Shown: positions 10,507-51,311, counted from the first letter of the stretch. The stretch: 64,000 nucleotides of DNA from Microtetraspora glauca (GCA_001570385.1 BBYL01000022.1:62001-126000); one strand, 5' to 3'. Numbers and translations: made by a program. The notes: generated by a model not told the origin, from the letters alone.

Positions 10507-12111
10507 ATGTACGGGCAGACGGGCGCCTGGAGTGCCCCCGGATATACCGAGATACGTGAGCTTGGCACGGGGGGCGGCGGGCGTGTCGTCCTCGCCAGGC
10601 ACGACGCCGACGGCATACCGGTGGCGATCAAGTACCTTTCCGGGGAGCTGCGCTCCGACCTCAACTTCGTCGGCAGGTTCCGGCACGAGGCGCACCTGCT
10701 CGCCCTCATGGAACCCAGCCCGCACGCCGCCCGCTTCTACGAGTACATCGAGGCGCCGCACGGCGCCGCCATCGTCATGGAGCTCGTGGACGGCGTGTCG
10801 CTGCGCACGATGCTGCGCTCGGAAGGGCCGACCGGGCCGGAGGCGGCCCTCGCCGTACTGAAGGGCTCGCTGCTCGGGCTGGCCGCCGCGCACGCCATCG
10901 GGGTGGTCCACCGCGACTACAAGCCCGAGAACGTGATGGTCGAGGCCGACGGCATGAGCAAGCTGGTCGACTTCGGCATCGCCGCGCGGGCCGGCGAAGG
11001 GGTGAGCGCCTCCGGCACGCCGCCGTACATGGCCCCGGAGCAGTGGTCGGGCAGCCCGGCGAGCCGGGCCACCGACGTGTACGCCGCCGCCGTGGTCTTC
11101 TTCGAGTGCCTCACCGGCACCCGTCCCTTCCGGGCGCAGAGTTTGCCCGCGCTCGCCCGCCAGCATCAGTCCACGCCTCCCCCGGTCGAGGAGGTGCCCC
11201 ACGCGCTCCAGGGGCTGATCGAGCGCGGCATGGCCAAGAACCCGGCCGACCGGCCGCCCTCGGCCGAGGCGTTCCTGCGGGAGCTGGAGTCCGTCGCCAC
11301 CGAGGCGTACGGCCCGGCGTGGGAGGAGCGGGGACGGCGCCGCCTCGCGGCGCTCGCCGGCCTCCTGCTCCCGTTCTTCCCGCTGACCGAGGAGGCGCCC
11401 GAGGCCAGTACGGCTCTCGCCGAGACGCACCTCGGCGGCAGCGCCCTCACCAAGGTCAGCGTCAGGATCGGCCTGGTGGCGGTCTCCCTGGCGGTGGTCG
11501 CCGGAGGCACCGCCGCGCTGGTCGGGTCGTTCAGCGGCGCCACGCTGCAGGCGGGGACGACGATCGAGACGCCCGGCCGGACGCCCAAGGATCTCGGGAT
11601 CGTCGACGAGGAGACCGCGGATCCCCAGACGGCCGAGCCCGAGGTGTCGCCGTCGCCGAAGGCGTCGAAGTCGCCCTCCCCCTCCCCTTCGCCCAGCCCC
11701 GCGTCGGCGACCACGAGCGCCCCGCCGGTGGCCCCGACGGCGAAGCCCTCGCCGAGCAGGAAACCGACCCCGGCCCGGACGCCGACGTCCAGGCCGACTC
11801 CCCGGCCGAGCCGGTCGACGCCGGAGCCGGACGACACGGTCAACATCCCCGACCTGCCGACGGGAACGTCCACGCCGACCCGGCCGCAGACTCCCACGAC
11901 CACCGCGCCGACGTCCTCCCCGACGGACACGGTCCGGCCCACGGAGACCTCGACGACCACGGAGCCGCCCCGGATCACCTCGGAGCCGGTGCCGTCGGCC
12001 CCCGCGTCGGTCCCGATGGCGGCGTTCGCCCTCGGCCTGGTGACGACCGGGCTCGTTCCCGCCACACTTGCCGTGAAGAGGATGACGGGACGGCACCGGA
12101 GGCGGCGATAG
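10507..12111 (+). CDS. Membrane-anchored Ser/Thr protein kinase (Hanks type)
   Basis: 534 residues, with GAGGAGA before the ATG. The kinase domain spans about 1-270: glycine loop LGTGGGGRVV, Lys42 (VAIKYL), catalytic HRDYKPENV (Asp137), DFG at 155-157 and APE at 176-178, so it should be active. A first membrane helix lies near residues 320-345. A Pro/Ser/Thr-rich stretch of about 170 residues and a last hydrophobic segment with an Arg-rich tail follow, so the PT-rich part is probably outside the cell. It has no PASTA repeats. The next gene starts at the following base and encodes a kinase-like protein lacking catalytic residues. Confidence 0.92.
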   Translation: MYGQTGAWSAPGYTEIRELGTGGGGRVVLARHDADGIPVAIKYLSGELRSDLNFVGRFRHEAHLLALMEPSPHAARFYEYIEAPHGAAIVMELVDGVSLRTMLRSEGPTGPEAALAVLKGSLLGLAAAHAIGVVHRDYKPENVMVEADGMSKLVDFGIAARAGEGVSASGTPPYMAPEQWSGSPASRATDVYAAAVVFFECLTGTRPFRAQSLPALARQHQSTPPPVEEVPHALQGLIERGMAKNPADRPPSAEAFLRELESVATEAYGPAWEERGRRRLAALAGLLLPFFPLTEEAPEASTALAETHLGGSALTKVSVRIGLVAVSLAVVAGGTAALVGSFSGATLQAGTTIETPGRTPKDLGIVDEETADPQTAEPEVSPSPKASKSPSPSPSPSPASATTSAPPVAPTAKPSPSRKPTPARTPTSRPTPRPSRSTPEPDDTVNIPDLPTGTSTPTRPQTPTTTAPTSSPTDTVRPTETSTTTEPPRITSEPVPSAPASVPMAAFALGLVTTGLVPATLAVKRMTGRHRRRR

Positions 12112-13497
12112 ATGGATGACGGCGGTTCCATCGCGGGGCACCGGCTGACCGGACGCGCCCGATCAGGCGAGCTCGGCACCTGGAGCGAGGCGATCTCTCC
12201 CGAGGGAACGCCGTCGGGCGTGCTGCGGTTCGACCCCGGGCTGGTCGCCGCACCGGCCGCCCGCGAGCGGCTGGTCGCCGCGGTGAGCGCCGACCGCCGC
12301 CTGTGGCAGGCCGGGCAGGCCGGGCAGGCCGGTCTGCTCCCCGTCGTGGACCTCGTCACCGCCCGCGGTGACATCTGGCTCGTCACCGGGCGTGGCGCCA
12401 TGCCCGTGGTCGCCGACCTGCTCGCCCAGGGCGGGCCGCCTCCCGGCCCCGGCGGGGTGGCGACGATCCTGATGGACACCGCCCAGACCCTGCTGGCCGT
12501 ACACGCGGCCGGGCTCGCCCACGGCGCGGTGCACCCCGGCACGATCGTGATCGGTGAGGACGGTTCGGCCCTGCTGGCCGAGCGCGGGCTGCTCGAGGCG
12601 CTGCGCGGGGAGCCCGCGTCACCGGAGGGGGACATCACGGCCTGGGTCGCGCTCGCCCGCGGCCTCGCGGCGAGCTGGGCGGACGGCCCGGCGGCCGCCC
12701 TGTTCGACCAGGCCGCGTCCGCCGCGGCGGCCCGCGGGCTCGCCGCCGCCCGCGACACCCTCGTCGCCGGGCGCGACCTGCTGCCCCAGGGGTTCACGAC
12801 CAGGGACCAGCTGATCCGTACGCTGCACTGGTGGTCGGCCTCCGCCGTCCCCACCGCCCCCGCTCCCGGTACGGCACCGCCCGCCAGGGAGACCACCGGG
12901 GAGGCCGTCACCCTGCTGCGGCTCCCGGACCCCGCGCCCGGTACGGCGGCTCCCACCGACGTGGTCATGCGGTTCGGTCCCGGCGTGCCGACGGAGACGA
13001 CGGCGGCGCAGATCTGGCGCTCCGGCGCCACCACGCAGTTCGCCGAGGAGACGGGCCGTGATCGAACGCCCGGCCGGCGGAACGGGCGGCGGGCCAGGCG
13101 CGGGGCGTGGGCGGGATCGCTGCTGCTCGCCATGCTCCTCGCCGTGGTCATCCTGTGGTTGCGCTTCCAGCCCGCCACCGAGGTGCTCGTCCAGAAGGTG
13201 GACGTGCGCGGTCCCAAGAAGGCGGTCGCCTGCGACGGCACGGCGATGCTGGTCGGCACGGTCACGACCAACGGCGGCGCGGGCAGCATCCGCTACGTCT
13301 GGGTGCGCAGCGACGGGGTGCGGATGACCGAGCGGGAGCAGAAGGTGCTCTCGGGGGACACGTCGGTGAAACTTCCACTGCGCTGGCAGGTGACGGGTTC
13401 CGGCGATTTCAAGGGCGTGGCCACGCTGCGGGTCCTGTCGCCGACCTCTTCGGGAAAGCCGCTGCAGGACAAGGCGTCCTTCTCTTATCGGTGCTGA
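12112..13497 (+). CDS. Membrane pseudokinase-like protein with exported C-terminal domain
   Basis: 461 residues. Residues about 1-230 follow the layout of a bacterial kinase C-lobe. Where HRDxKPxN is expected the protein has HGAVHPGTIVI (137-147), so the catalytic Asp is Ala and the Asn is lost. The DFG position reads LLAERG. A single membrane helix (GSLLLAMLLAVVILWL) near residue 335 leads to about 110 outside residues with cysteines at each end, probably Ig-like. It directly abuts the active kinase gene, so a scaffold, sensor or substrate role for that kinase is likely. Fold assignment rests on motif position; a structure prediction would decide. Confidence 0.65.
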   Translation: MDDGGSIAGHRLTGRARSGELGTWSEAISPEGTPSGVLRFDPGLVAAPAARERLVAAVSADRRLWQAGQAGQAGLLPVVDLVTARGDIWLVTGRGAMPVVADLLAQGGPPPGPGGVATILMDTAQTLLAVHAAGLAHGAVHPGTIVIGEDGSALLAERGLLEALRGEPASPEGDITAWVALARGLAASWADGPAAALFDQAASAAAARGLAAARDTLVAGRDLLPQGFTTRDQLIRTLHWWSASAVPTAPAPGTAPPARETTGEAVTLLRLPDPAPGTAAPTDVVMRFGPGVPTETTAAQIWRSGATTQFAEETGRDRTPGRRNGRRARRGAWAGSLLLAMLLAVVILWLRFQPATEVLVQKVDVRGPKKAVACDGTAMLVGTVTTNGGAGSIRYVWVRSDGVRMTEREQKVLSGDTSVKLPLRWQVTGSGDFKGVATLRVLSPTSSGKPLQDKASFSYRC

Positions 13498-39983: not shown

Positions 39984-41231
39984 TCAGGCGAGCGTGACGG
40001 TGACCGGGAGCTCCTTGATGCCGTTGACGAAGTTGGAGCGGACCCGGCGGATGTCCCCGGCGAGCCGGATGTCGGCGAGGCGCGGCAGCAGCTCCTCGAA
40101 CATGATCCGGATCTCCAGGCGGGCGAGCGCGTTGCCGAGGCAGAAGTGCGGGCTGCCCTTGCCGAAGGTGATGTGGTCGTTGTCCTGACGGGTCACGTCG
40201 AAGGTGTAGGGCGACTCGAAGGCCCGCTCGTCGCGGTTGCCGGAGGCGAACCACATGACGACCTTGTCGCCTTCGGCGATCTTCTGCCCGTGGATCTCCA
40301 CGTCCCGGGTCGCCGTACGGCGGAAGTGGTAGACCGGGGAGGCCCAGCGGAGGAACTCCTCCACCGCGTTCGGCATCAGCGAGAGGTCCTGCCGGAGCTT
40401 CTCCGCCTGCTCGGGGTGCTCGATCAGCGCGCGCATCGTGTGCGAGATCGCGTGCCGGGTGGTCTCGTTCCCGGCCACCACGAGCAGCAGGAAGTAGTTG
40501 TCGAAGTCGGTCGGCGAGAGCGCCACACCGTCGGCGGGGGTCTCGTTGACCAGCTTGCTGACGAGGTCGGTGCCGTCGCCGCCGCGCCGCTGCCTGGCCA
40601 GCTCGCGGCCGTACTCGAAGACCTCGAGGGAGGCGGGGCTGCGGAACGGCAGGTCCCGGTACTTCTCGCTCTCCGCGCTGTGCAGCAGCACGTCGGCGTA
40701 GTCGGGGTCGGTGTTGCCGATGATGCGGTTGCCCCAGTCGATGAGCTGCTGGGTGTCGTCCGCCGGCACGTCGAGCATCTTCGCCAGGACGTTGATCGGG
40801 AAGTCGGCGGAGACCTCCTTCACGAAGTCGAACGTGCCCTTGGCGAGCGCGGCGTCCAGGGTCCGGGCGGTGAGCCCGCGCAGGAAGACCTCGTACCCGG
40901 CGACGGCCCTTGGGGTGAACTCGCGCTGCAGGATGCGGCGCAGCACGCTGTGCCGGGGGCCGTCGGTCTCCAGGATGGAGCGGCGGATGGTGGCCTGCCG
41001 GTCGTCGACCTCCTCGAGGTTGGTGAACTTCATCGAGGTGAAGGTCGCCGCGTCACGGTCCACGCGCACGATGTCGGCGTGGCGGGTGAGCGACCAGAAA
41101 CCGCTGCCGTGCTCGCCCTCGTCCTGCCAGTGCACCGGGGCCTGTTCGCGCAGCACGTCGAACATGCGCCACGGGGTGTCGCCGTCGAGGAACTTGTCGT
41201 TGTCCGCCAGGTCGACGTCTTCCAGGCGCAT
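39984..41231 (-). CDS. Cytochrome P450, bacterial class I
   Basis: 415 residues with CTGGAGGACC before the ATG. I-helix [11 protein letters not shown]-helix E-x-x-R (EEFLRW) and the heme loop [16 protein letters not shown] (Cys thiolate) are all intact. The loop has the one-residue-longer form of the CYP124/125/142 clan. A class-I P450 needs a ferredoxin and a reductase; both are encoded in the same cluster at 49.9-51.3 kb. It follows the ligase gene on the same strand, so the substrate may be the ligase product. Substrate is inferred only. Confidence 0.92.
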
Positions 41232-41270
41232 TGGGTCCTCCAGAAAGGGGTTGGTGAGAAGTGCGGGTGA

Positions 41271-42608
41271 CTAGAGGTGGTAGGCGTACTCGCGGAACTC
41301 CCAGTCGGTGATGAACTGGGAGAAGCGCTCGACCTCGTTGCGCTTGTAGGCGAGGTAGGCGGCGGTGAACTCCTTGCCGAGCACCTCGCTCAGCGCCGTG
41401 TCGGCGCCGAGGGCGTCCAGCGCGACGGGCAGCGACATCGGCAGTACGGGGGCCTTGCTGGTGTCGTAGCCGTAGCCCGACAGCGGGGCGGGCGGCTCCA
41501 CGCGGTCGCGGATGCCGAGGTAGACGGCGGCGAGCAGGCCCGCGATGGCGATGTAGGGGTTGGCCGAGGCATCGCCGAGCCGCACCTCCAAGCGGGCGCC
41601 GGCGCCGCGCTCCGGCGGCACCCGCAGCATGGCGCTGCGGTTGTCCAGGCCCCAGTCGATCAGCCAGGGGGCGAGTGTGTCGGGCCCGAACCGCTTGTAG
41701 GAGTTGATCGTCGGGTTGAGCAGGGCGGCGAGCGCGGGCGCGTGCGCGAGGATTCCCCCGATGGCGTACCTGGCGCTCTCCGACAGCCCGTACGCCCCGG
41801 AGGGGCCGTCGAAGACGTTGCGGCCGCTCTCGTCCACGCACGAGAGGTGGATGTGGAAGCCGGAGCCGCCCTCGTCGTTGAACGGCTTGGCCATGAAGGT
41901 CGCCAGCAGGCCGTCGCGGCGGGCCAGCTCCTTGATGGCGGACTTGAAGCGGAACGCCCGGTCGGCCGCGTCGACCGCCTCGGAGTGGTGCAGGTTGATC
42001 TCGAACTGGCCACCGGAGAACTCGTGGTTGCCCATGGTGACGCCGAGGTCCATCCCGCGCAGCGTGCGGAGGGTGCGCAGCACGTGCGAGCCCTTGTCGC
42101 CCTTGGCGCCGACGACGTAGACGTTGCCGGGCGCGTCGTCGTACCGCTTCCAGCCGGCGCCGTCGGGCTCCATCAGGAAGTACTCCAGCTCGGGGCCGAC
42201 CACGCCGGTCAGCCCGAGCTCGGCCAGCCGGGCGGCGGCGGCGCGGACCACCTCGCGCGGCGATTCGGGGAACGCCTCTCCGGTGGCCGGGTTGACCGCG
42301 TCGCCGAGACAGTACGCCACGCCGGGCTCCCAGGACAGCGGGACGAGCGTGGACAGGTCGGGATGGATCGAGATGTCGGGGAGGCCCTCGTCGAGGCCGC
42401 CGGGCACCGGGACGACGTCGCCCTGGGGCGAGGTGTAGTAGACCGCGCGGCAGAACGCCACGCCGCTCTCGCACACGTCGGGAAGCCGCTCCACGAGCAC
42501 GTCCTTGCCGCGGTCGGTGCCGATGAGGTCGGGATAGCCGATACGGACGACGTCGACGCCCTGCTCCTTCAGGCGCTGGACGGTCCGTTCCGCGGATTCC
42601 GTACTCAC
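41271..42608 (-). CDS. Glutamine-synthetase-like gamma-glutamyl-amine ligase
   Basis: 445 residues from a GTG with GAGGAGG five bases upstream. The GS catalytic signatures are present: GVVGPELEYFLM and NHEFSGGQFEINL (metal-binding Glu residues), GSGFHIHLS (ATP/metal) and NPTINSYKRFGP. The second motif and short N-terminus match the PuuA/IpuC/GlnA3-type ligases that join glutamate to an amine, rather than ammonia-assimilating GlnA. Neighbours (permease, glutaminase, P450) support a catabolic role for an amine. The amine is not known. Divergent from the ADC-like gene. Confidence 0.85.
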   Translation of the reverse strand: MSTESAERTVQRLKEQGVDVVRIGYPDLIGTDRGKDVLVERLPDVCESGVAFCRAVYYTSPQGDVVPVPGGLDEGLPDISIHPDLSTLVPLSWEPGVAYCLGDAVNPATGEAFPESPREVVRAAAARLAELGLTGVVGPELEYFLMEPDGAGWKRYDDAPGNVYVVGAKGDKGSHVLRTLRTLRGMDLGVTMGNHEFSGGQFEINLHHSEAVDAADRAFRFKSAIKELARRDGLLATFMAKPFNDEGGSGFHIHLSCVDESGRNVFDGPSGAYGLSESARYAIGGILAHAPALAALLNPTINSYKRFGPDTLAPWLIDWGLDNRSAMLRVPPERGAGARLEVRLGDASANPYIAIAGLLAAVYLGIRDRVEPPAPLSGYGYDTSKAPVLPMSLPVALDALGADTALSEVLGKEFTAAYLAYKRNEVERFSQFITDWEFREYAYHL

Positions 42609-42640
42609 GTGGCCTCCTCGATAGTGCCAGGACATGGGGG

Positions 42641-42764
42641 GTTCATTTGGGTGCAAACAATACGCGCGAAACCGGCGGACAACAAGAGCCCACCAATCGA
42701 AGATATCCAGGGGTTGCTCGTGACAACCCGCAGCTCAGCACATATCGTATGGACCCAAATGAAC
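42641..42764. promoter_or_regulatory. Divergent operator region with TTTG-N4-CAAA site and 12-bp mirrored arms
   Basis: TTTGGGTGCAAA (42646-42657) is a TTTG-N4-CAAA palindrome next to the ligase start. GTTCATTTGGGT (42641-42652) recurs as its exact complement ACCCAAATGAAC (42753-42764) near the ADC-like start. TATGGACCCAAA (42748-42759) is a near-palindrome with one mismatch. The arrangement can block both promoters. Confidence 0.65.
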
Positions 42765-42788
42765 TGTCGTGACCCTCAAGGAGGCGCC

Positions 42789-43598
42789 GTGGCGAAGCTG
42801 CGCGGTTTCTACACGCCCAAGACCGCGACCGGCCGGTCCTCGCTGGTTCCCAGCCCGCCCTGGTACTACTCCGGCGACCTGCTCACCGTGGAGTACCGCA
42901 CCGATCCCGCCAAGGTGGCCGCGCTACTCCCCGATCATCTCTCGCTCGCCGACGAGGACCCCGGAGCGGTGGCCGTGATCTGGGCGGACTGGCAGTCGTG
43001 CTCCGGCGGGCAGGAGGAGCTCCTCGACCCCGTCCGGTCGCAGTACAAGGAGTGCTTCGTGGTGGTGCGCTGCTCCCACCAGGGGCAGACCTACTCCCGC
43101 TGCGTCTACATCTGGGTGGACAAGGACTTCGCCATCGCCCGCGGCGCGCACCAGGGCTATCCGAAGAAGCTCGGCTCCATCCACATGACCCGCCCGCACC
43201 CGTTCGGCCAGGCCGCGCCGCGGATCGGGGAAGGGGGCGTCTTCGGCGCCACGCTCGCCGCCGCCGACCGGCGGCTCGCCCAGGCCGTCGTACGGCTGCG
43301 CGAGCCCAGCGAGACCAACGGGTTCGTCAACGGCCACCCGATGGCCCACAACCGCTGGCTGCCGTCCATCGAGCCGGGCAAGGGGCTGGCCCTGGACGAG
43401 CTGATCGTCACGGCCGGGGCGTCCTTCGAGGGTGGCCAGGCGTGGACCGGCGACGCGGAGATCGAGCTGTTCGACGCGCCCACCGAGGAGCTGGCGGACC
43501 TCACCGTGGACGAGGTCATCGGCGGCTACTACCGCCAGGTCGGCGTCGTCTGGAACGGCGGCACCCTGCTCGAGTCGGGCACCTCCGGCGCGGAGTAG
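42789..43598 (+). CDS. Acetoacetate-decarboxylase-superfamily protein
   Basis: 269 residues from a GTG with AAGGAGG upstream. GYPKKLGSIHM carries the Lys pair whose first Lys forms the Schiff base in acetoacetate decarboxylase, so the catalytic centre is present. Relatives in other bacteria act as aldolase-dehydratases on pyruvate instead of decarboxylases, so the reaction is uncertain. Within a ring-cleavage cluster a role on a 2-oxo acid product is plausible. It ends before a long bidirectional hairpin. Confidence 0.8.
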   Translation: MAKLRGFYTPKTATGRSSLVPSPPWYYSGDLLTVEYRTDPAKVAALLPDHLSLADEDPGAVAVIWADWQSCSGGQEELLDPVRSQYKECFVVVRCSHQGQTYSRCVYIWVDKDFAIARGAHQGYPKKLGSIHMTRPHPFGQAAPRIGEGGVFGATLAAADRRLAQAVVRLREPSETNGFVNGHPMAHNRWLPSIEPGKGLALDELIVTAGASFEGGQAWTGDAEIELFDAPTEELADLTVDEVIGGYYRQVGVVWNGGTLLESGTSGAE

Positions 43599-43622
43599 TC
43601 GCCCGTTGACATGAAGGGTTGG

Positions 43623-43666
43623 CATGAATAAGGAGGGCCGGGATTCCCCGGCCCTCCTTATTCATG
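43623..43666. terminator. Bidirectional terminator, perfect 20-bp stem
   Basis: CATGAATAAGGAGGGCCGGG (43623-43642) and its exact complement (43647-43666) enclose ATTC. It lies between the convergent ADC-like and permease genes; TTATTC on one side and AATAAG read in reverse give T-rich tails for both directions. Confidence 0.9.
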
Positions 43667-43675
43667 TTCGGACCA

Positions 43676-45154
43676 CTACTCCGCGGGAGGAGCGCCGTGA
43701 CCGATCTGGGCGTAGGTCCGCGGGTTGCTCGTCTTGATCCACACGCCGTACCCGATGCCGATGACACCGGCGAGCAGGACGAGACCGGGGATCAGCCAGT
43801 TCAGCACCGAGCCGTCGGGGGTGCCGAGCAGCGCCTGGAAGTTGACCACCGCGAGCACCAGGATGACCGCGAGGGCGGCACTGGACAACACCGGAGCGAC
43901 CACCCTGCTCCAGCCGTTCTCGCCCCGACCGTCCCGCCGGAAGTAGCCGATGACCGAGACCGAGGTGACAACGAGCAGCAGGATGACGCCGAGGGCGCCC
44001 AGGTTGGTGAACCAGTTGAACAGCGTGCCGGTCGGGTCGCCGCCGGACACGCCGAACAGCAGCACCACCGCGGCGGCGAAGATCGACTGGGTGAGCGAGC
44101 CCACGTACGGCGAGCCGTGGCTCGGGTGGGAGGCGCCCAGCTTGCCGGGGAGTACGCCCTCGCGGCCGAGCGCGAAGAAGTACCGGGCCACCGCGTTGTG
44201 GAACGACAGCAGCGCGGCGAACACGGCGGTCACCATGAAGACGTTGGCGAGCGTGGAGAAGCCGGAGCCGAGGGTCTGCTCACCGAGGATGAACACCAGG
44301 TCGGTGGCCTTCTCGCCGGACTCTGCGACGATGTTGTCCACGCCGGTTCCCATCGACATCGCCCAGGCGGTGAAGGCGTAGAACAGACCGATCACCGCGA
44401 CGGCGATGTAGGTGGCGCGGCTGACGGTCCGCTTGGGGTCGCGACACTCCTCGCTGTAGATCGCGCCGGACTCGAAGCCCATGAACGACGCCATCACCCA
44501 GCAGAACCCGGCGCCGACCGCTCCGGTGGTCAGCGCGCCCCAGGTGAACGGCTCGGCGGACAGGCCGGACGGCGCGTTGGAGACCTGGGCGAAGTCGAAG
44601 GCGAGCACGGTCAGGCTCTCGCAGATGAGCAGGACGGCCAGTACACGGGCGTTCAGGTCGATCCTGCGGTAGCCGAGGATCGCGATCAGCACCAGCGCGA
44701 CCAGCGAGCACACCCACCACGGCACGTCCAGGCCGAAGTGCGCGCCGAGGAGCCCGGAGGCGGCTGCGCCGAACAGGCCGTACAGGCCGACCTGCATCGC
44801 GTTGTAGGCGACCAGCGCGACGAAGGAGGCGCCGACGCCTCCGACCCTGCCCAGGCCCTGGGCGATGTAGGAGTAGAACGCGCCGGCGTTGGAGATGTGC
44901 CGGCTCATCGCGGCGTACCCGACGGAGAAGACCGCGAGCACGGTGGCGAGCACCAGATAGATGAGGGGCACGCCGATCACCCCGGTGGTGCCGTAGCTCA
45001 TGGGGAGGCCACCGGCGGCGACGGTCAGCGGGGAGGACGCGGCCACCACGAAGAAGACGATGTCCGGCACGCCGATACGACGGCGGGAGAGTTCGTGCGT
45101 GGCGGACTGTTCACCGGCCGAGAGCCGTCCGGTGGCGATTGCCTCATCGGCCAT
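43676..45154 (-). CDS. APC superfamily amino acid/amine permease
   Basis: 492 residues from the ATG at 45154 with GGAAGG upstream. About 12 membrane helices; FFVVAASSPLTVAAGGLPMSYG in helix 1 and FMGFESGAIYSEECRDPKRTV after helix 6 are typical of the APC family. It would import an amine or amino acid by proton symport. Its place between the ligase and glutaminase genes suggests it brings in the ligase substrate. Confidence 0.9.
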   Translation of the reverse strand: MADEAIATGRLSAGEQSATHELSRRRIGVPDIVFFVVAASSPLTVAAGGLPMSYGTTGVIGVPLIYLVLATVLAVFSVGYAAMSRHISNAGAFYSYIAQGLGRVGGVGASFVALVAYNAMQVGLYGLFGAAASGLLGAHFGLDVPWWVCSLVALVLIAILGYRRIDLNARVLAVLLICESLTVLAFDFAQVSNAPSGLSAEPFTWGALTTGAVGAGFCWVMASFMGFESGAIYSEECRDPKRTVSRATYIAVAVIGLFYAFTAWAMSMGTGVDNIVAESGEKATDLVFILGEQTLGSGFSTLANVFMVTAVFAALLSFHNAVARYFFALGREGVLPGKLGASHPSHGSPYVGSLTQSIFAAAVVLLFGVSGGDPTGTLFNWFTNLGALGVILLLVVTSVSVIGYFRRDGRGENGWSRVVAPVLSSAALAVILVLAVVNFQALLGTPDGSVLNWLIPGLVLLAGVIGIGYGVWIKTSNPRTYAQIGHGAPPAE

Positions 45155-45204
45155 GGCAACCTTCCATATTGGGTGGATCGGGGTTCGTGGCGAGATCGTT
45201 TGCA

Positions 45205-45238
45205 TACGTACGACCTGCCGTTTGGCGGATCGTACGTG
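45205..45238. promoter_or_regulatory. Imperfect palindrome between permease and MarR genes
   Basis: TACGTACGA (45205-45213) and TCGTACGTG (45230-45238) pair at eight of nine positions around a 16-base core. Next to it CAAATGAACT repeats a word from the ligase/ADC promoter region. Likely an operator for the permease and the MarR gene. Confidence 0.45.
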
Positions 45239-45281
45239 TACAAATGAACTTGACGCAAGAGTTGACATGAAAGGAGCCGGG

Positions 45282-45854
45282 GTGCCCGCGCACTATTCGT
45301 TGTCGGAGACCGAGGAGGCGGTGAAGCGCCGTCTGGGAGAGATCCCCGTCCGGCGCGAGGCACTCGCCGCCGTCTCCAACCTGTATCGCGCGGCCGCCGC
45401 GGTCCGGCAGCATCTGGAGAACTCCGCGCTACGCTCGGCCGACCTCACCTGGAGCGCGTTCGTCGTGTTGTGGGTGGTATGGATCTGGGAGGAGATCGAG
45501 ACCCGGCACGCCGCCGCCGAGGCGGGCATCTCCAAGGGCACGCTCACCGGCATCATCAAGACCCTGGAGTCGCGCGGCCTGGCGGAGCGCCGCCAGCATC
45601 CCGACGACGGCCGGCTGGCGCTACTGCGGCTCACTCCCGAGGGCCTGGCCCTGATGGAGACGCTGTTCCCCGCGTTCAACGACGAGGAGTCGTTCGTGGT
45701 GGGCGCGCTCAAGGACGAGGAGTCGCTCCACCTCGCCGACACGCTGCGCCGCATCGTCACCCACCTGGAGGAGCACGGCGAGGAGCGGCGGGAGAACCTG
45801 CGTCGCGACTCCCCCGCCCCGCCGCGTCGCGGCGGCCGCCGCCGGTCGAGCTAG
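45282..45854 (+). CDS. MarR family regulator of the catabolic cluster
   Basis: 190 residues from the GTG at 45282, seven bases after AAGGAG; an ATG at 45267 is the alternative. The winged helix is clear: ETRHAAAEAGISKGTLTGIIKTLESRGLAERRQHPDDGRLALLRLTPEG. The N-terminal extension is longer than usual. MarR proteins (HpaR/HpcR) repress homoprotocatechuate clusters in enterobacteria, so this gene is the best candidate for binding the repeated operators here. It converges with the glutaminase gene. Confidence 0.9.
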   Translation: MPAHYSLSETEEAVKRRLGEIPVRREALAAVSNLYRAAAAVRQHLENSALRSADLTWSAFVVLWVVWIWEEIETRHAAAEAGISKGTLTGIIKTLESRGLAERRQHPDDGRLALLRLTPEGLALMETLFPAFNDEESFVVGALKDEESLHLADTLRRIVTHLEEHGEERRENLRRDSPAPPRRGGRRRSS

Positions 45855-45860
45855 AGCCGG

Positions 45861-46559
45861 TCAGGCCGACCTGGCGGCCGTGACCAAGCCGTCGAAGACG
45901 CGCTGGTTGACGGGGTCGGTCGCCGCGGTGTCCTCGGGGTGCCACTGGACGCCCAGGAACCAGCCCGCCCTCGCGGCCCGCTCGGCGGCCTCGACCGTGC
46001 CGTCCTCCGCGTGGGCGGTGGCCACCAGGCCCTCCCCGAGCGACGACGCGCACTGGTGGTGGTAGCAGGACGCCTCCACCTTCTCCGCGCCGGTCACCCG
46101 GGCGAGCAGCGAGTCCGGCCGTACGCGCACGGGGTGGACGAGGTGGCGGTGGTCCGGCTCCATGTGCTGGCGCAGCCGCCCGCCGAGGGCCACGTTGACG
46201 ACCTGGAGCCCGCGGCAGATGGCCAGGGTGGGCAGGCCGGTGCGCAGCGCGTGCCGGGCCGCCGCGAGGTCGAAGGCGTCCTGCTCGGCGTCCACGTCGT
46301 AGACGCTCTCGTGCGCCGTGTCGTCGCCGTACGCCGAGGGGGCGAGGTCGCCGCCGCCGGGGAGCAGCAGCCCGTCCACGGCGGCCAACCGGCCCGCCGC
46401 CTCGTCCGCGCCCACGGGATGCATGAGGAAGGGCTCGCCGCCGGCGCGGTAGACGGCGTCGGCGAGCGCCCTCGCGGTCACCACTGCCGAGTAACGGAGC
46501 GCGGACGTGGTGGCGGCGAACCGTGAGGGAATCGCGATGATCGGCCGGCGATCGGGCAT
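45861..46559 (-). CDS. Class-I glutamine amidotransferase, PuuD-like gamma-glutamyl hydrolase
   Basis: 232 residues from the ATG at 46559 with AAGGAG upstream. The nucleophile elbow LAICRGLQVVN (Cys), the oxyanion loop LLPGGGDLAP and the His-Glu pair in VQWHPED make the full triad. It belongs to peptidase C26, which removes gamma-glutamyl groups from gamma-glutamyl-GABA. With a ligase of the PuuA type in the same cluster it probably removes glutamate after the amine has been processed. Confidence 0.88.
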   Translation of the reverse strand: MPDRRPIIAIPSRFAATTSALRYSAVVTARALADAVYRAGGEPFLMHPVGADEAAGRLAAVDGLLLPGGGDLAPSAYGDDTAHESVYDVDAEQDAFDLAAARHALRTGLPTLAICRGLQVVNVALGGRLRQHMEPDHRHLVHPVRVRPDSLLARVTGAEKVEASCYHHQCASSLGEGLVATAHAEDGTVEAAERAARAGWFLGVQWHPEDTAATDPVNQRVFDGLVTAARSA

Positions 46560-46579
46560 CCCAGTCTCCTTGCAGCTTG

Positions 46580-46591
46580 TTTGACTCCAAA
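46580..46591. promoter_or_regulatory. TTTG-N4-CAAA operator (glutaminase side)
   Basis: TTTGACTCCAAA, flanked by GTTTG and CAAACGA, lies 20 bases upstream of the glutaminase start. It matches the sites at 46636 and 42646. Confidence 0.65.
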
Positions 46592-46635
46592 CGATACCGT
46601 CATATTGACTCGCCGCGAGAGCGCGACCTAAATTG

Positions 46636-46647
46636 TTTGGAACCAAA
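46636..46647. promoter_or_regulatory. TTTG-N4-CAAA operator (dehydrogenase side)
   Basis: GTTTGGAACCAAAC is symmetrical; the TTTG-N4-CAAA core spans 46636-46647, 16 bases before the aldehyde dehydrogenase start and 56 bases from the other site. Confidence 0.7.
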
Positions 46648-46663
46648 CGACTTGGAGGGGCGG

Positions 46664-48118
46664 ATGGCCACTGTCGGGGATGTCACGGTCCAGGAGGATC
46701 ACTGGATCGGGGGCGAACGAGTCTCCTCACCTGCGACGTTCGACGATGTCTCGCCGATCGACGGACAGGTGATCGCGCGGGTCGCACGCGGCGGCGCGAA
46801 GGAGGCCGACGAGGCGGTCCGGGCCGCGACCAAAGCGTTCCCCGCGTGGGCGCGTACGAGCCGTGAGGAGCGGGCGCGTCTTCTGCACGCGATCGCCGAC
46901 GGAGTCGAGAAGCGGCTGGACCAGCTCGCGATCGTGGAGACGACCGACAACGGCGCTCTGCTTCGTTCGCACCTGCGTGGTGTGATGCCCCGCGTGGCGC
47001 ACAACTTCCGCTTCTTCGCCGACTGGCTGCTCGGCCTCGGGCACGACGACTTCGAGACCCGCGGGCACCGCAACCACGTCTCGTGGGATCCGGCCGGGGT
47101 GTGCGCCCTGATCACGCCGTGGAACGCGCCGCTCATGCTGGCCACCTGGAAGATCGCCCCCGCGCTCGCCGCCGGGGACACGGTCGTCCTGAAGCCGGCC
47201 GAGTGGTCGCCCCTCACCGCGTCGCTGCTGGCCGAGATCACCGCCGAGGCCGGGCTGCCCGACGGCGTGTTCAACGTCGTCCAGGGCTACGGCGAGGAGG
47301 TCGGCGCCCCCCTGGTCGCCCACCCCGACGTCCGCCGGATCAGCTTCACCGGATCGGTGCCCACCGCCCGGCACATCGCCCGGGCGGCGGCGGCCAACCT
47401 GACCCCGCTGTCCCTCGAACTCGGCGGCAAGTCCCCGCTGATCGTGTTCGCCGACGCCGACCTGGACCTGGCCGTGAACCTCGCGGTCGAGCAGTACGAC
47501 AACGCCGGGCAGGTCTGCCTGGCCGGGACCCGGCTGCTGGTCGAGGAGAGCGTCGCCGCCGAGTTCACCGAGCGGTTCGTCGCCAAGGCGGCCACGCTCC
47601 GCCAGGGCGACCCGCGCGACCTCGCCACCGACATCGGCCCCAACATCCACCGCGAGCACGTCGAGCGGATCGACGGGTTCGTCCAGCGGGCCATCGCCGC
47701 CGGAGCCACGCCCGTCATCGGCGGCGGCCCCAACACCGACCTCGGCGGCCTCTACTACCGGCCCACCCTGTTCACCGGCGCGGCCGCGGACAGCGAGATC
47801 GTCAACGAGGAGGTCTTCGGACCGGTCCTCACGCTCCAGACGTTCCGTACCGAGGAGGAGGCCGTCGAGATGGCCAACTCCACCAGGTTCGGTCTGGCCG
47901 CCACCCTGGCGACGGGGTCGCGCGAGCGGGCCGACAGGGTCACCGAGCGTCTCGTCGCCGGCACCGTCTGGGTCAACTGCTTCTTCGTCCGCGACCTGCA
48001 GGCCCCGTTCGGCGGCGCGCGCCAGTCGGGCGTCGGCCGCGAGGGCGGCGACTGGAGCTTCGACTTCTACTGCGACGTCAAGAACACCGTCACCGCGCCG
48101 GGAGGCTGGAATGGGTGA
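46664..48118 (+). CDS. Aldehyde dehydrogenase, HpaE/CHMS-dehydrogenase-like
   Basis: 484 residues from the ATG with GGAGGGG upstream. NAD-binding ITPWNAPLM and FTGSVPTA, general-base LELGGKSP (Glu) and nucleophile GQVCLAG (Cys) are present. Its length and its coupling to an HpaD-like dioxygenase fit 5-carboxymethyl-2-hydroxymuconate-semialdehyde dehydrogenase of the homoprotocatechuate pathway. Other semialdehydes remain possible. Its last eight bases overlap the dioxygenase gene. Confidence 0.87.
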   Translation: MATVGDVTVQEDHWIGGERVSSPATFDDVSPIDGQVIARVARGGAKEADEAVRAATKAFPAWARTSREERARLLHAIADGVEKRLDQLAIVETTDNGALLRSHLRGVMPRVAHNFRFFADWLLGLGHDDFETRGHRNHVSWDPAGVCALITPWNAPLMLATWKIAPALAAGDTVVLKPAEWSPLTASLLAEITAEAGLPDGVFNVVQGYGEEVGAPLVAHPDVRRISFTGSVPTARHIARAAAANLTPLSLELGGKSPLIVFADADLDLAVNLAVEQYDNAGQVCLAGTRLLVEESVAAEFTERFVAKAATLRQGDPRDLATDIGPNIHREHVERIDGFVQRAIAAGATPVIGGGPNTDLGGLYYRPTLFTGAAADSEIVNEEVFGPVLTLQTFRTEEEAVEMANSTRFGLAATLATGSRERADRVTERLVAGTVWVNCFFVRDLQAPFGGARQSGVGREGGDWSFDFYCDVKNTVTAPGGWNG

Positions 48119-49052
48119 AGTCGTCGGCGCGGGCATCCTCGCCCACGCCCCCACGATCATGCTGCCCCTTGAGGTCCGCAAGGAGCTCAACGAGGGCAAG
48201 GAGATCAGCATCGTCCCCGGGCTCCGGCGCCTGCGGGAGGAGGTCTTCGAGACCGTCGACTACGACACCGTGATCGTGCTCGACTCGCACTGGGCGACCA
48301 CCGTGGAGTTCGTGGTCACCGCGCAGGACCGGCGTTCCGGGCTCTTCACCTCGGAGGAGCTCCCGCGCGGCATGTGCCGGATCCCCTACGACTTCCCCGG
48401 CGACCCCGAGCTGGCCCGCCTGATCGCGGCCCAGCAGGAGAAGCACGCCACCTGGATCACCGCGATCGACGACCACCACCTGCCGATCTTCTACGCCACG
48501 GTCAACCTGTGGAAGTACCTCGGCGTACCCGGCAAGCGGTGGATCTCGATCGGCATGTGCCAGACCGCCGAGACCGAGGACAACCTCCGGCTGGGCCGCG
48601 CGGTAGGCGACGCCATCGCGGCGAGCGACCGCAAGGTCCTGCTGATCGCCTCGGGCGCGTTCTCGCACACCTTCTGGCCGCTGCGTCAGCTCCGCGCCCA
48701 CGAGTCCAGCGACCCCGTGCACGTCTTCTCCCCCGAGGCGCGTGCCGCGGACGAGGAGCGCATCGAGTGGATGCTGGCGGGCGACCACGCCCGCGTGCTC
48801 GACACGATGGAGGACTTCTACCGCTTCAAGCCCGAGGCGCGGTTCGGCCACTACCTGATGATGGCCGGGGCCCTCGGCGAGCACGACCTCATCGCGCCGG
48901 GGCGGCTCTACAGCGACTACGAGAACGCCACGGGCACCGGTCAGGTGCACATCTGGTTCGACCGGCCGGAAAGCGGCTTCGCCGCTCCGCAGGCCACCGA
49001 CAGCTCGGGCGACCCGTACCCCTACCCGTTCACCCTCGAAGGGACCCGTTGA
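48111..49052 (+). CDS. LigB-family extradiol dioxygenase, HpaD-like
   Basis: 313 residues, starting within the dehydrogenase gene. ILAHAPTIMLP has the first metal His, VLDSHWATTVEFV the second, and GLFTSEELPRGM, ASGAFSHTFW and the C-terminal GTGQVH follow the pattern of enterobacterial 3,4-dihydroxyphenylacetate 2,3-dioxygenase (class III). It would open a catechol ring next to the hydroxyls using Fe(II) and oxygen. The side chain of the true substrate is not known. Confidence 0.85.
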   Translation: MGEVVGAGILAHAPTIMLPLEVRKELNEGKEISIVPGLRRLREEVFETVDYDTVIVLDSHWATTVEFVVTAQDRRSGLFTSEELPRGMCRIPYDFPGDPELARLIAAQQEKHATWITAIDDHHLPIFYATVNLWKYLGVPGKRWISIGMCQTAETEDNLRLGRAVGDAIAASDRKVLLIASGAFSHTFWPLRQLRAHESSDPVHVFSPEARAADEERIEWMLAGDHARVLDTMEDFYRFKPEARFGHYLMMAGALGEHDLIAPGRLYSDYENATGTGQVHIWFDRPESGFAAPQATDSSGDPYPYPFTLEGTR

Positions 49053-49897
49053 TGCCCGAGTACCGCAGGATCCTCCTGGACGGCGCCGCCACCCAGGTAC
49101 GCCGGGAGGGTGACGAGCTGGTCAGCGCGGACGGCCGCGTGGTGGGCGTCGACGACGCCGTCCACCTGCCGCCGAGCGTGCCGAGCAAGATCGTCGCCGT
49201 CCACCTGAACCACCGCAGCCGGGTCGAGGAGTTCATGACCTCGCTGCCCCCGGCACCGACGTACTTCCACAAGCCGACCTCGTCGCTGAACGGCCACAAG
49301 GGCGCGATCGTCCGTCCCGAGCGGTGCAAGTACCTCAACTACGAGGGCGAGGTGGCCATCGTCATCGGCCGCACCGCGCGGGGCATCTCGCCCGAGGAGG
49401 CCGGGGACTACATCGCCGGCTACACCGTGGGCAACGACTACGGCCTGCACGACTTCCGCGACACCGACGCCGGATCGATGCTGCGGGTGAAGGGCTCCGA
49501 CACGCTCTGCCCGCTCGGCCCCGGCCTGGTCACCGACTGGGACTTCCACGGCAAGCGGCTGCGCACGTACGTCAACGGCACGGTCGTGCAGGACGGCTCC
49601 ACCGACGAGATGGAGTGGGACATGCACTACCTCGTCGCCGACATCGCCCGCACGATCACGCTCTACCCGGGCGACGTACTGCTGTCGGGCACCCCGGCCA
49701 ACTCGCGGCCGGTCCAGCCTGGCGACGTGGTCGAGGTCGAGGTCGAGGGCCTCGGCACGCTGACCAACCACATCGTCCAGGGCCCCGCCCCCATCCGTGA
49801 CGACTGCGGCGCCCAGCCCACCGAGTCCGAGGAGGTCATCTCGACCACCTTCGGCGGTGACTGGGAGTTCCGCGGCATCCGCGCCCCCAAGCGCTAG
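49052..49897 (+). CDS. Fumarylacetoacetate-hydrolase-family protein, HpaG/fumarylpyruvate-type
   Basis: 281 residues; the ATG overlaps the dioxygenase stop by one base. NYEGEVAIVIG supplies the metal Glu pair, YTVGNDYGLHDFRD the middle block and LLSGTPANSRP the closing loop. In homoprotocatechuate clusters this family acts as decarboxylase/isomerase on the ring-cleavage product; elsewhere it hydrolyses C-C bonds of acylpyruvates. Genes for the later hydratase and aldolase (HpaH, HpaI) and for HpaF are not seen in the window. Confidence 0.87.
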   Translation: MPEYRRILLDGAATQVRREGDELVSADGRVVGVDDAVHLPPSVPSKIVAVHLNHRSRVEEFMTSLPPAPTYFHKPTSSLNGHKGAIVRPERCKYLNYEGEVAIVIGRTARGISPEEAGDYIAGYTVGNDYGLHDFRDTDAGSMLRVKGSDTLCPLGPGLVTDWDFHGKRLRTYVNGTVVQDGSTDEMEWDMHYLVADIARTITLYPGDVLLSGTPANSRPVQPGDVVEVEVEGLGTLTNHIVQGPAPIRDDCGAQPTESEEVISTTFGGDWEFRGIRAPKR

Positions 49898-49926
49898 GCC
49901 ACACGCGTTAGAAGGAGTCAGTAAGC

Positions 49927-50115
49927 ATGAAGGTCATCGTCGACATGGACGTCTGCAAGGACCACGGGCAGTGCGTCTTCTCCGCCCCCGAGGTCTTCCA
50001 GATCAACGAGAACGGCCGGCTGGTCTTCGAGGCCGAGCCCGACGAGTCGCTGCGCGACGCCGTCGAGGAGGCCGCCGACGTCTGCCCGCTCCAGGCCATC
50101 ACGATCGAGGGCTGA
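49927..50115 (+). CDS. [3Fe-4S] ferredoxin, P450 partner type
   Basis: 62 residues with AAGGAGT upstream. DVCKDHGQCVFSAPEVF and DVCPLQAI give three cluster Cys (10, 16 and 53), the pattern of small 3Fe-4S ferredoxins that feed bacterial P450s. Five bases before the reductase gene, so the two are co-expressed. The only P450 in the window lies 8.7 kb away in the divergent part of the same cluster. Confidence 0.93.
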   Translation: MKVIVDMDVCKDHGQCVFSAPEVFQINENGRLVFEAEPDESLRDAVEEAADVCPLQAITIEG

Positions 50116-50120
50116 CGAAC

Positions 50121-51311
50121 GTGGGCCAGCGCATCGTGATCGCGGGCGCCTCCATGGGCGGCCTGCGCGCGGCCGAGCGGCTGCGCGCCTCCGGATTCAT
50201 GGGAGAAATCGTCGCCGTCGGCGACGAGACCCACATGCCCTACAACCGGCCGCCGCTCTCCAAGGAGGCACTCGCCTCCGAGGTGACCCACGAGGCGGTC
50301 GCGTTCCGGCTGCGCCCGGCCGTCGCCGACGTGACGTGGCGGCTCGGCGTCCGGATCGCCTCCGCCGACCTCGCGGCGGGAGCCGTACGGCTCGCGGACG
50401 GTGCCGAACTGGCCTACGACGGCCTGGTGATCGCCACCGGGATGCGGCCGCGACGGCTGCCCACGCCCGGCCCCGCGCTGGGCAGGCACGTCGTACGGAC
50501 CCTTGAGGACGCCTGCGCGCTGCGCGGCGAGCTGGGCCCGGACGCCCGCGTGCTGGTCATCGGAGCAGGATTCATCGGATGCGAGGTCGCCGCGACGGCG
50601 CGGCTCCTCGGCGCCGACGTGACCGTGGTCGCGCCGGAGGCGGTGCCCATGCGGCGCCCGCTCGGCGACGACCTCGGCGCCGCGCTCCAGCGGCGGCACG
50701 AACGGCAGGGGATCCGCTTCCTGCTGGGCCGTACGGTCGCCGCGTTCCTCGGCGAGGACCGGGTCACCGGTGCCGAGCTGTCCGACGGCACCCGCCTCGA
50801 CGCCAATGTCGTCGTTGAGGCGGTCGGTTCGGCCTCCAACACCGAGTGGCTGGACGGCAACGGCCTCGACCTGTCCGACGGTGTGCTGTGCGACAACGCG
50901 CTGCGCGTCGAGGGGCGGCCCGGGGTGGTGGCGGTGGGCGATGTGGCCCGCTTCCCCAACCCCCGCTACGACGGCGTGGCCCGGCGGGTCGAGCACTGGA
51001 GCATCCCGACCGACACGGCCAAGCGGGCCGCCGTCACGCTGATGACCGACCTCGGGCTGTCCGGGCACGACCCCGCGCCCTTCACGCCGCTGCCCACCTT
51101 CTGGAGCGACCAGTACGACCTGCGGATCCAGTCGTTCGGCACCCCGGCGCTCGGCGGGGACGACATCCGCGTCCTGGAAGGCGACCTCGACGGTGAGGTC
51201 GTGGTCGGCTACCACCGCGACGGGGCGCTCGTCGGCGTCGTGATGATCGGCCTTCCGTCCGCCGTCGCCCGCTACCGCGCCGAGCTGATGCGCGGCCCCG
51301 CCGCCGCCTGA
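50121..51311 (+). CDS. FAD-dependent ferredoxin reductase
   Basis: 396 residues from the GTG at 50121. It has two dinucleotide folds: IVIAGASMGGLRAAERLR for FAD and VLVIGAGFIGCEVAATARLLG for NAD(P)H, with VAVGDVARF at the second FAD contact. It belongs to the rubredoxin/putidaredoxin-reductase group. It would pass electrons from NAD(P)H to the ferredoxin and on to the P450. It is the last complete gene of the cluster. Confidence 0.93.
   Translation: MGQRIVIAGASMGGLRAAERLRASGFMGEIVAVGDETHMPYNRPPLSKEALASEVTHEAVAFRLRPAVADVTWRLGVRIASADLAAGAVRLADGAELAYDGLVIATGMRPRRLPTPGPALGRHVVRTLEDACALRGELGPDARVLVIGAGFIGCEVAATARLLGADVTVVAPEAVPMRRPLGDDLGAALQRRHERQGIRFLLGRTVAAFLGEDRVTGAELSDGTRLDANVVVEAVGSASNTEWLDGNGLDLSDGVLCDNALRVEGRPGVVAVGDVARFPNPRYDGVARRVEHWSIPTDTAKRAAVTLMTDLGLSGHDPAPFTPLPTFWSDQYDLRIQSFGTPALGGDDIRVLEGDLDGEVVVGYHRDGALVGVVMIGLPSAVARYRAELMRGPAAA

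Follow-up and report, generated by a model that had tools for sequence, protein, structure and literature searches.

Results

The window examined here is a 64,000-nucleotide stretch of the 9.27-Mb Microtetraspora glauca genome (contig C22, positions 62001–126000), and our subject is a block of eleven genes at window positions 39984–51311 that may encode the breakdown of an aromatic amine. On the minus strand are genes for a CYP124/125-like cytochrome P450 (39984–41231; PF00067), a candidate ring hydroxylase of gamma-glutamyl (gamma-Glu)-tyramine, and for a glutamine synthetase (GS)-like ligase (41271–42608; PF00120, 329 bits), the putative gamma-Glu-tyramine synthetase. There follow a plus-strand gene of the acetoacetate decarboxylase (ADC) family (42789–43598; PF06314, 199 bits), whose product would act as a Schiff-base hydratase and retro-aldolase in the combined role of HpaH and HpaI; a minus-strand gene for an APC permease, the possible amine importer (43676–45154; PF00324 at 106 bits, and PF13520; start picked by eye); a plus-strand gene for a MarR regulator, the proposed operator-binding repressor (about 45267–45854; PF01047, 44 bits); and a minus-strand gene for a PuuD-like hydrolase of the class-I amidotransferase fold (45861–46559; PF07722, 172 bits), for which gamma-Glu-gamma-aminobutyrate (gamma-Glu-GABA) is the proposed substrate. 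The remaining five genes, all on the plus strand, encode an HpaE-like aldehyde dehydrogenase (ALDH; 46664–48118; PF00171, 534 bits), which would oxidize the ring-cleavage semialdehyde; a LigB-type extradiol dioxygenase (48111–49052; PF02900), proposed to cleave gamma-Glu-dopamine at the 2,3 position; an FAH/HpaG-like decarboxylase/isomerase (49052–49897; PF01557, 192 bits); and the ferredoxin (49927–50115; PF13370) and flavin (FAD) ferredoxin reductase (about 50112–51311; PF07992 and PF14759; start codon uncertain) of the P450 chain. Start codons throughout the block are our choice. By Pfam, the class I P450 system is complete within the block, and the best solved relatives of the P450 are CYP125MRCA (400 bits), CYP124 (276), and CYP125 (243–258).

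The Pfam scan recovered within this interval all eleven genes that an initial annotation of the sequence had named, and no equivalent of HpaF, HpaH, or HpaI was matched among the block genes, as that annotation had also stated. Neither an amine oxidase nor a PuuB-like gene was matched by Pfam among the open reading frames of the block, and no Rieske-type dioxygenase was matched there. NCBIfam was run on ten of the eleven proteins (all except the reductase). The best model was HpaE for the ALDH (533 bits; cut-off 638), HpaD_Fe for LigB (120; cut-off 316), and gamma-Glu-GABA hydrolase for the PuuD-like protein (73; cut-off 266). The FAH protein matched PRK12764 best (222; cut-off 444) and the HpaG C-terminal model second (202; cut-off 276), and the ligase scored 290 against GlnA (cut-off 429) and 260 against gamma-Glu-putrescine synthetase (cut-off 650). 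The ADC-family protein scored 181 on the MppR model TIGR04460 (cut-off 380), and the MarR protein scored 42 on the HpaR model (cut-off 121). The expected names thus come up while the cut-offs are missed; the block is real, and its enzymes, judging by these scores, are related to those of known pathways yet not identical with them.

We used LigB, whose nearest named relatives are from Microtetraspora and 92–95% identical, to follow the block through other genomes. At E≤1e-30, 28 of 200 family genomes have a relative (one match being partial); at E≤1e-90, the same holds for 30 of 394 class genomes, and 454 relatives were confirmed when one genome per species was scanned. We examined the neighborhoods in 26 of the 28 family genomes (leaving out the window's own and genome G019) along with those of the best 80 of the 454 relatives; the latter include Streptomyces, Actinomadura, Nocardioides, Actinoplanes, Kitasatospora, Kutzneria, Rhodococcus rhodnii, and freshwater actinobacterial metagenome-assembled genomes (MAGs). 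Seven of the resulting 106 loci are repeats, leaving 99 distinct loci, and frequencies are given for the 65 of these in which LigB is flanked on both sides by 9 kb or more. Genes were scored as present at identities of 55% for ALDH and ADC, 60% for FAH, 50% for P450, and 40% for GS, PuuD, and MarR.

The initial annotation had asked whether the gene set recurs in other actinomycetes, and the core set of ADC, ALDH, LigB, and FAH was found in 60 of the 65 well-flanked loci. Taken singly, ALDH was present in 65, FAH in 64, ADC in 60, GS in 56, MarR in 53, P450 in 47, PuuD in 42 (45 if a second amidotransferase is accepted in its place), and a second ALDH in 31; the core four with both GS and P450 occurred together in 46. 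Among well-flanked loci, Rieske genes were close to the cluster in 5 of 54 in one locus set and in 1 of 17 in the other. The set is also plasmid-borne: of 72,556 plasmid records, five have LigB, and these include pSLUN1 of Streptomyces lunaelactis, a mobilizable plasmid from Streptomyces canus, and one from the alphaproteobacterium Novosphingobium, on which identity to the window is 80% for FAH, 61% for LigB, 58% for ADC, 42% for P450, and 37% for GS. Gene order varies from locus to locus yet the set persists, and thus it seems to be held together by function. We are all but certain that the cluster is a conserved functional unit, and the joining of gamma-glutamylation, a P450, and an extradiol enzyme, first noticed in the window alone, is borne out as one coherent combination.

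An 18-bp palindrome, TCGTTTGGNNCCAAACGA, occurs four times in the block, 13–34 bp from the chosen starts: before GS–P450 (42643–42660, 3 mismatches), ADC (42745–42762, 2 mismatches), PuuD (46577–46594, 2 mismatches), and the ALDH operon (46633–46650, 1 mismatch). An inverted-repeat search with a minimum length of 7 recovers one of the four. Across the whole genome, nine sites were found at up to 3 mismatches as compared to one for the reversed pattern, and on this basis chance was rejected as the source of the palindromes. Outside the window, one site (2 mismatches) lies 15 bp 5' of an amidotransferase gene on contig C10 and another (3 mismatches) lies 70 bp 5' of a decarboxylase gene on contig C20; matches on C6, C21, and C50, near or inside genes with no visible connection to the block, are probably chance. 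Among 19 of the 106 loci (chosen by us, 4 being repeats), we counted 81 operator matches and no control matches, with 4 of the 81 away from mapped gene starts. On pSLUN1 there are six sites, five of which precede APC, GS/MarR, ADC, a second ALDH–PuuD pair, and an ALDH–LigB–FAH–decarboxylase row. We infer that MarR binds this operator and controls the cluster.

The C10 gene under this operator (L013, 6619–7329) encodes a second amidotransferase, PRK07053-like at 111 bits (cut-off 250), which may hydrolyze another gamma-glutamyl amide; its relatives, found close to the cluster at other loci, match in 39 of the searched loci, that of M. glauca included, some matches being partial. At L062, an Amidohydrolase_3 gene (835–2781) stands directly 3' of a cluster-type operator (3 mismatches), and such genes lie near the cluster in eight loci.

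M. glauca has a separate homoprotocatechuate cluster on contig C21 (L157, 6150–12481) comprising a type I HpaD (433 bits; cut-off 321), HpaE (674; cut-off 638), an HpaG-like/RraA fusion, HpaI (321, below its cut-off of 369), and HpaH (367; cut-off 351). The window LigB belongs to another dioxygenase class than this HpaD. Its predicted structure (mean pLDDT, the predicted local distance difference test score, of 83.6) matches best the fold of homoprotocatechuate 2,3-dioxygenase 8iq8, at 22% identity, and then those of 2-aminophenol dioxygenases. As expected of a LigB-type extradiol enzyme, the PF02900 match is accompanied by H12, H60, H186, and E242, which align with 8iq8, are invariant in 18 of 18 orthologues, and which we take to be the two histidines, the glutamate, and the catalytic histidine. 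Because these residues are invariant, the window LigB should be active, perhaps on a related catechol.

Compared to the GlnA paralogues of M. glauca, the window ligase is longer by about 11 residues at the FDGSS loop. An Asp follows the insertion; its equivalence with Asp50 depends on the alignment, and it is absent from three of eight compared cluster ligases (L099, L113, and L083). Passages of PMC11335346 describe the GoaS ligases for organic amines as having lost Asp50' and, in most members, as having an extra N-terminal motif. The insertion in the window ligase agrees with the replaced ammonium-site FDGSS/Asp50' loop and extra N-terminal loop by which those passages characterize GoaS, and it fits an organic amine substrate without naming which. 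Scores for gamma-Glu-putrescine synthetase and gamma-Glu-GABA hydrolase remain below the cut-offs for these Puu enzymes, as given above.

The ADC-family protein belongs to the ADC superfamily by its PF06314 match and by Lys126, which aligns with Lys156 of MppR, presumably the Schiff-base lysine, and with the lysine of 6eej, 4zbo, and 5upb; both K126 and K127 are conserved without exception in the 18 sequences aligned. Nine cluster-bearing genomes are small (1.3–3.0 Mb), and ADC is present in eight of their nine loci, the ninth being a short contig. In these nine genomes, which are mostly MAGs with completeness not stated, HpaH was found in none and an HpaI-like gene in one, below cut-off; the DmpE hydratase exceeded its cut-off in none (two were marginal), and likewise the DmpG aldolase (seven were weak, as were all 14 control genomes). 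Because these hydratases and aldolases are scarce in the small genomes, the ADC-family enzyme is a natural candidate for hydration and cleavage, and we moderately favor its being a hydratase-aldolase. Saccharolobus offers a parallel in which, according to passages of PMC7820114, two ADC-superfamily genes are strongly induced during growth on phenol and are suggested to be meta-pathway aldolases.

A second ALDH gene lies near the cluster in many relatives; its family was predicted before scoring, and four examples were then tested. Three scored best as PuuC (543, 549, and 563 bits; cut-off 850), and the fourth, from a Microtetraspora (L073), scored best as an aminobutyraldehyde dehydrogenase at 640 bits, above the cut-off of 615. 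A fifth, on the S. canus plasmid, was again best as PuuC (568 bits, under 850). Typed by identity among the 106 loci, repeats included, 37 are PuuC-type and 10 are aminobutyraldehyde-type, and a PuuC-type gene adjoins PuuD on both pSLUN1 and the S. canus plasmid. The closest candidate in M. glauca is an aminobutyraldehyde dehydrogenase on contig C24 (689 bits; cut-off 615). A second ALDH of either type fits gamma-Glu-4-aminobutanal as a product of the steps before it.

In 10 of the 99 distinct loci, a PF00282-like decarboxylase gene, of two types counted together, is no more than 155 bp away from a cluster gene, in five positions: after FAH (L089 and L083, the latter partial), after P450 (L099), after GS (L119 and L122), after the ferredoxin reductase (L120, L124, L139, and L115), and between MarR and PuuD (L096). 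Those of L083 and L096 were identified by tblastn similarity, those of L122 and L099 match PF00282, and L128, outside the count, holds a fragment 0.3 kb after LigB. On pSLUN1 the gene follows ALDH–LigB–FAH. For all four main-type decarboxylases scanned, NCBIfam ranks two tyrosine decarboxylase models first; for the C20 decarboxylase of M. glauca (C20, 121896–123257), 77% identical to that of the Kibdelosporangium cluster, these are TIGR03811 and TIGR03812 (121 and 120 bits; cut-offs 905 and 299). Nearest to the decarboxylase among solved proteins are the aromatic amino acid decarboxylase 6ebn and also 5hsi and 7cwx, the last two of which we take to be bacterial tyrosine decarboxylases. In the 394 class genomes, LigB was present in 11 of 19 with a main-type decarboxylase as compared to 1.4 expected (Fisher 3.7e-9), in 10 of 18 after removal of M. 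glauca (2.8e-8), and, counted by genus, in 6 of 10 as compared to 0.94 expected (3.5e-5; both genes occur in one genome in five genera), values that ignore the relatedness of the genomes and thus are not exact probabilities.

Several observations in the relatives concern other features. The L120 decarboxylase gene (11793–13217) is broken by one in-frame stop, with both pieces matching PF00282. A family of 505-residue proteins is encoded 3' of the ferredoxin reductase or decarboxylase gene in freshwater genomes (L126, 13247–14764; L120, 13264–14778; L124, 6220–7734), and the L126 member matched neither Pfam nor NCBIfam at the thresholds applied. L109 and L124 are MAGs labelled Bifidobacterium breve that hold parts of the cluster; the label of L124 is probably wrong because its decarboxylase (first piece) is 92% identical to the counterpart in an acI genome from Lake Baikal. 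In L141 (a groundwater MAG) and L144 (Kineosporia sp. R_H_3), P450, GS, the second amidotransferase, LigB, ferredoxin, and ferredoxin reductase occur together, and ALDH, FAH, and ADC were not found in the 14 kb examined. A luciferase-like F420-dependent oxidoreductase is encoded at L081 (11832–12785; TIGR03619, 183 bits, cut-off 167) and near the cluster in 28 other loci. CHAT, methyltransferase, Fic, sulfatase, and AMP-binding neighbors were each seen in one or two relatives and taken as unrelated.

Discussion

The homoprotocatechuate route carries a carboxymethyl side chain that ends in succinic semialdehyde. Where a glutamylated aminoethyl chain takes the place of the carboxymethyl group, the same steps give pyruvate and gamma-Glu-4-aminobutanal. 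We propose, on the grounds of protein family and gene context, that the cluster follows this course. Tyramine would be imported by the APC permease or formed from tyrosine by the PF00282 decarboxylase, the GS-like ligase would convert it to gamma-Glu-tyramine, and the P450 with its ferredoxin and reductase would hydroxylate this to gamma-Glu-dopamine. LigB would then open the ring at the 2,3 position, the HpaE-like ALDH would oxidize the semialdehyde, and the HpaG-like FAH enzyme would isomerize and decarboxylate the product to a 2-oxo-alkenoate, which the ADC-family enzyme, through its Schiff-base lysine, may hydrate and cleave by retro-aldol reaction to pyruvate and gamma-Glu-4-aminobutanal. 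A PuuC-like or aminobutyraldehyde dehydrogenase, cluster-borne in many relatives and with a candidate on another contig in M. glauca, would yield gamma-Glu-GABA, from which PuuD would free GABA and glutamate. The formulas balance exactly, from C13H18N2O4 (gamma-Glu-tyramine) through C13H18N2O5, C13H18N2O7, C13H18N2O8, C12H18N2O6, and C12H20N2O7 to pyruvate and C9H16N2O4. A free aminoethyl chain beside a new aldehyde is expected to cyclize, as in the 2,3-cleavage of L-DOPA during lincomycin biosynthesis, and the glutamyl cap would prevent this. Gamma-Glu-4-aminobutanal is the substrate of PuuC and gamma-Glu-GABA that of PuuD, which would explain why PuuA- and PuuD-like genes stand beside a ring-cleavage set.

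An arylethylamine is a probable substrate, and GABA is nearly as probable an end product. We hold with somewhat less assurance that the substrate is tyramine in particular and, to the same degree, that the glutamyl cap is retained through ring cleavage. We also favor, more modestly, a MarR-controlled complete breakdown of tyramine or a near relative with the amine masked as a gamma-glutamyl amide. Toward the fullest statement, a widespread actinobacterial route from tyramine or tyrosine to pyruvate, CO2, and GABA in which the cap is kept throughout and ADC replaces the hydratase-aldolase pair, we lean only slightly. The initial annotation had likewise suggested a path for tyramine or a related arylethylamine; the tyrosine-decarboxylase-like partner genes point to the same substrates, and that part is retained, as opposed to the homoprotocatechuate route by which they were thought to be degraded.

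The strongest alternative, which we consider unlikely, is that the glutamate serves for hydroxylation only, with PuuD or the second amidotransferase removing it, free dopamine undergoing cleavage, and the resulting 4-aminobutanal (pyrroline) being converted to GABA by an aminobutyraldehyde dehydrogenase. There is precedent in the degradation of aniline and 1-naphthylamine, in which, according to passages of PMC11335346, the glutamylated amine is the substrate of the oxygenase; the L073 second ALDH, moreover, is of the type acting on free aminobutyraldehyde. Against it are the preponderance of PuuC-type genes (37 as compared to 10 of the other type) and their position next to PuuD on two plasmids, which fits a terminal hydrolysis, as well as the cyclization to which an uncapped side chain would be exposed.

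We regard it as quite improbable that the substrate is a phenethylamine with methyl or other substituents (hordenine, N-methyltyramine, or methoxytyramine), which some loci would demethylate by means of their second P450 and one-carbon genes. Beside the cluster on the S. canus plasmid (L174, 14672–16122 and 22181–24924) are a second P450 with ferredoxin, FolD, PurU, and an aminomethyltransferase-family gene, and PurU-like genes recur at L120 (1943–2797), L139 (3216–4070), and partly L098. However, only 3 of the 106 loci were found to have PurU-like genes, the window has none, and a tertiary amine would have to lose a methyl group before it could be glutamylated.

We likewise find it hard to credit a true homoprotocatechuate branch, in which oxidation and deglutamylation come first, LigB cleaves 3,4-dihydroxyphenylacetate, and HpaH and HpaI are supplied from C21. 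The top NCBIfam names for the ALDH and LigB and the second for FAH do point this way, C21 does encode both missing enzymes, and HpaH-like genes are present in 10 of the 11 larger cluster genomes. But C21 has its own HpaD and HpaE above cut-off, HpaH was not found in any of the nine small cluster genomes, and a PuuC-like ALDH would be left unexplained. The claim that the block feeds such a branch is not supported, given the separate C21 set and the sub-threshold scores of the window HpaD-, HpaE-, and HpaG-like enzymes, with neither HpaH nor HpaI matched in the block. The accompanying proposal, that oxidation and deglutamylation precede ring cleavage, is not supported either: no amine oxidase or PuuB match lies in the block, and the second ALDH of relatives is PuuC-like or aminobutyraldehyde-dehydrogenase-like.

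An aniline-type, Atd-like degradation by glutamylation, oxygenation to a catechol, and meta cleavage is very improbable. A GS-like enzyme, an amidotransferase-like protein, and an oxygenase make up the Atd/Npa plan described in passages of PMC11335346, and passages of PMC7820114 propose ADC-superfamily proteins as aldolases in archaeal meta cleavage of phenol, but the oxygenase of the window is a P450, with no Rieske dioxygenase matched in the block, and both the PuuC-like ALDH and the amino-acid decarboxylase partners would be unexplained. The P450–GS clusters for cyclic amines (morpholine and piperidine) were dropped as a model because they leave ring cleavage unexplained.

A number of observations weigh against the capped route to GABA that we prefer. 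All ten NCBIfam-scanned proteins score below the cut-off for the family after which they are named. A second ALDH is missing from the window, the C24 candidate stands beside what look by eye like polyamine-transport genes, and a second ALDH accompanies the cluster in 31 of the 65 well-flanked loci and in none of the nine small-genome loci in the stretch examined. On the Novosphingobium plasmid neither ALDH is PuuC-like (the best scores are HpaE at 479 and Rv0768-type at 399), and neither a PuuD-like gene nor the operator was found. A P450 of at least 50% identity is missing from 18 of the 65 loci and was not found within 24.9 kb of pSLUN1, and some loci carry a luciferase-like oxidoreductase for which the proposed steps do not account. 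As regards the ADC-family enzyme, its structure model was poor (pLDDT 62.7) and was not used, and in the 11 larger cluster genomes HpaH-like genes are found in 10 (only that of M. glauca over cut-off) and HpaI-like genes in 6; the MAG origin of the small genomes noted above tells in the same direction. As regards the decarboxylase, the main type scores about 120–135 bits against tyrosine-decarboxylase cut-offs of 299 and 905, the freshwater type (L115) is closer to diaminobutyrate decarboxylase models, the gene adjoins the cluster in only about one-tenth of loci, and 8 of 19 decarboxylase genomes are without LigB. The C20 operator deviates at 3 positions, and with that many mismatches about one match is expected by chance. 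At none of 11 further decarboxylase loci, 6 of which belong to genomes with LigB, was the operator found, nor was any cluster gene in the 1.5 kb examined.

Parts of the proposed route have counterparts in known systems. The order of chemistry is that of the homoprotocatechuate pathway (HpaDEFGHI), with a LigB-type dioxygenase whose best solved relative is 8iq8, an HpaE-like ALDH, and an HpaG-like FAH enzyme; the block differs in its sub-cut-off scores, in the addition of glutamylation, and in having an ADC-family enzyme in place of HpaH and HpaI. With the Puu pathway it shares a GS-like ligase, a PuuD-like hydrolase, the PuuC-like ALDH of relatives, and, as we propose, the intermediates gamma-Glu-4-aminobutanal and gamma-Glu-GABA; unlike that pathway, it has no matched PuuB oxidase, the proposed source of its aldehyde is an aromatic ring, and its ligase and hydrolase fall short of the Puu cut-offs. 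In aniline and 1-naphthylamine degradation (AtdA, NpaA; GoaS), passages of PMC11335346 show the amine to be capped with glutamate ahead of oxygenation. Here, in contrast, the oxygenase is a P450 rather than a Rieske dioxygenase, the amine is on a side chain, and the cap is proposed to be kept past ring cleavage. MppR and other ADC-like aldolases share PF06314 and the aligned lysine with the window protein, and relatives of MppR are proposed as aldolases in phenol degradation in passages of PMC7820114. The window protein scores well under the MppR cut-off, and the catabolic, retro-aldol direction proposed for it is different. Other ADC-like aldolases are Sbi00515 and Swit_4259.

We found no description of this pathway, and no match for an ADC aldolase-dehydratase, in searches of an open-access library; subscription papers were outside their scope, so the pathway may be described elsewhere. 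Terms such as gamma-glutamyltyramine or gamma-glutamyldopamine do occur in nine papers of that library. In the passages of PMC11002830 where tyramine and glutamylation occur, the two are unrelated.

If the route is as proposed, it would be a further strategy for aromatic amines in which a capped amine is carried through ring opening and harvested as GABA, and the homoprotocatechuate and putrescine pathways would meet at gamma-Glu-4-aminobutanal. An ADC-like protein would then have a catabolic role as hydratase-aldolase, and functions could be assigned to genes that currently carry, for example on the cluster plasmids, the labels catechol 1,2-dioxygenase, glutamine synthetase family, or acetoacetate decarboxylase family. 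The pathway would have reached small freshwater actinobacteria and a Novosphingobium plasmid, and in actinobacteria of soil and freshwater it would link amino-acid decarboxylation, biogenic amines, and GABA.

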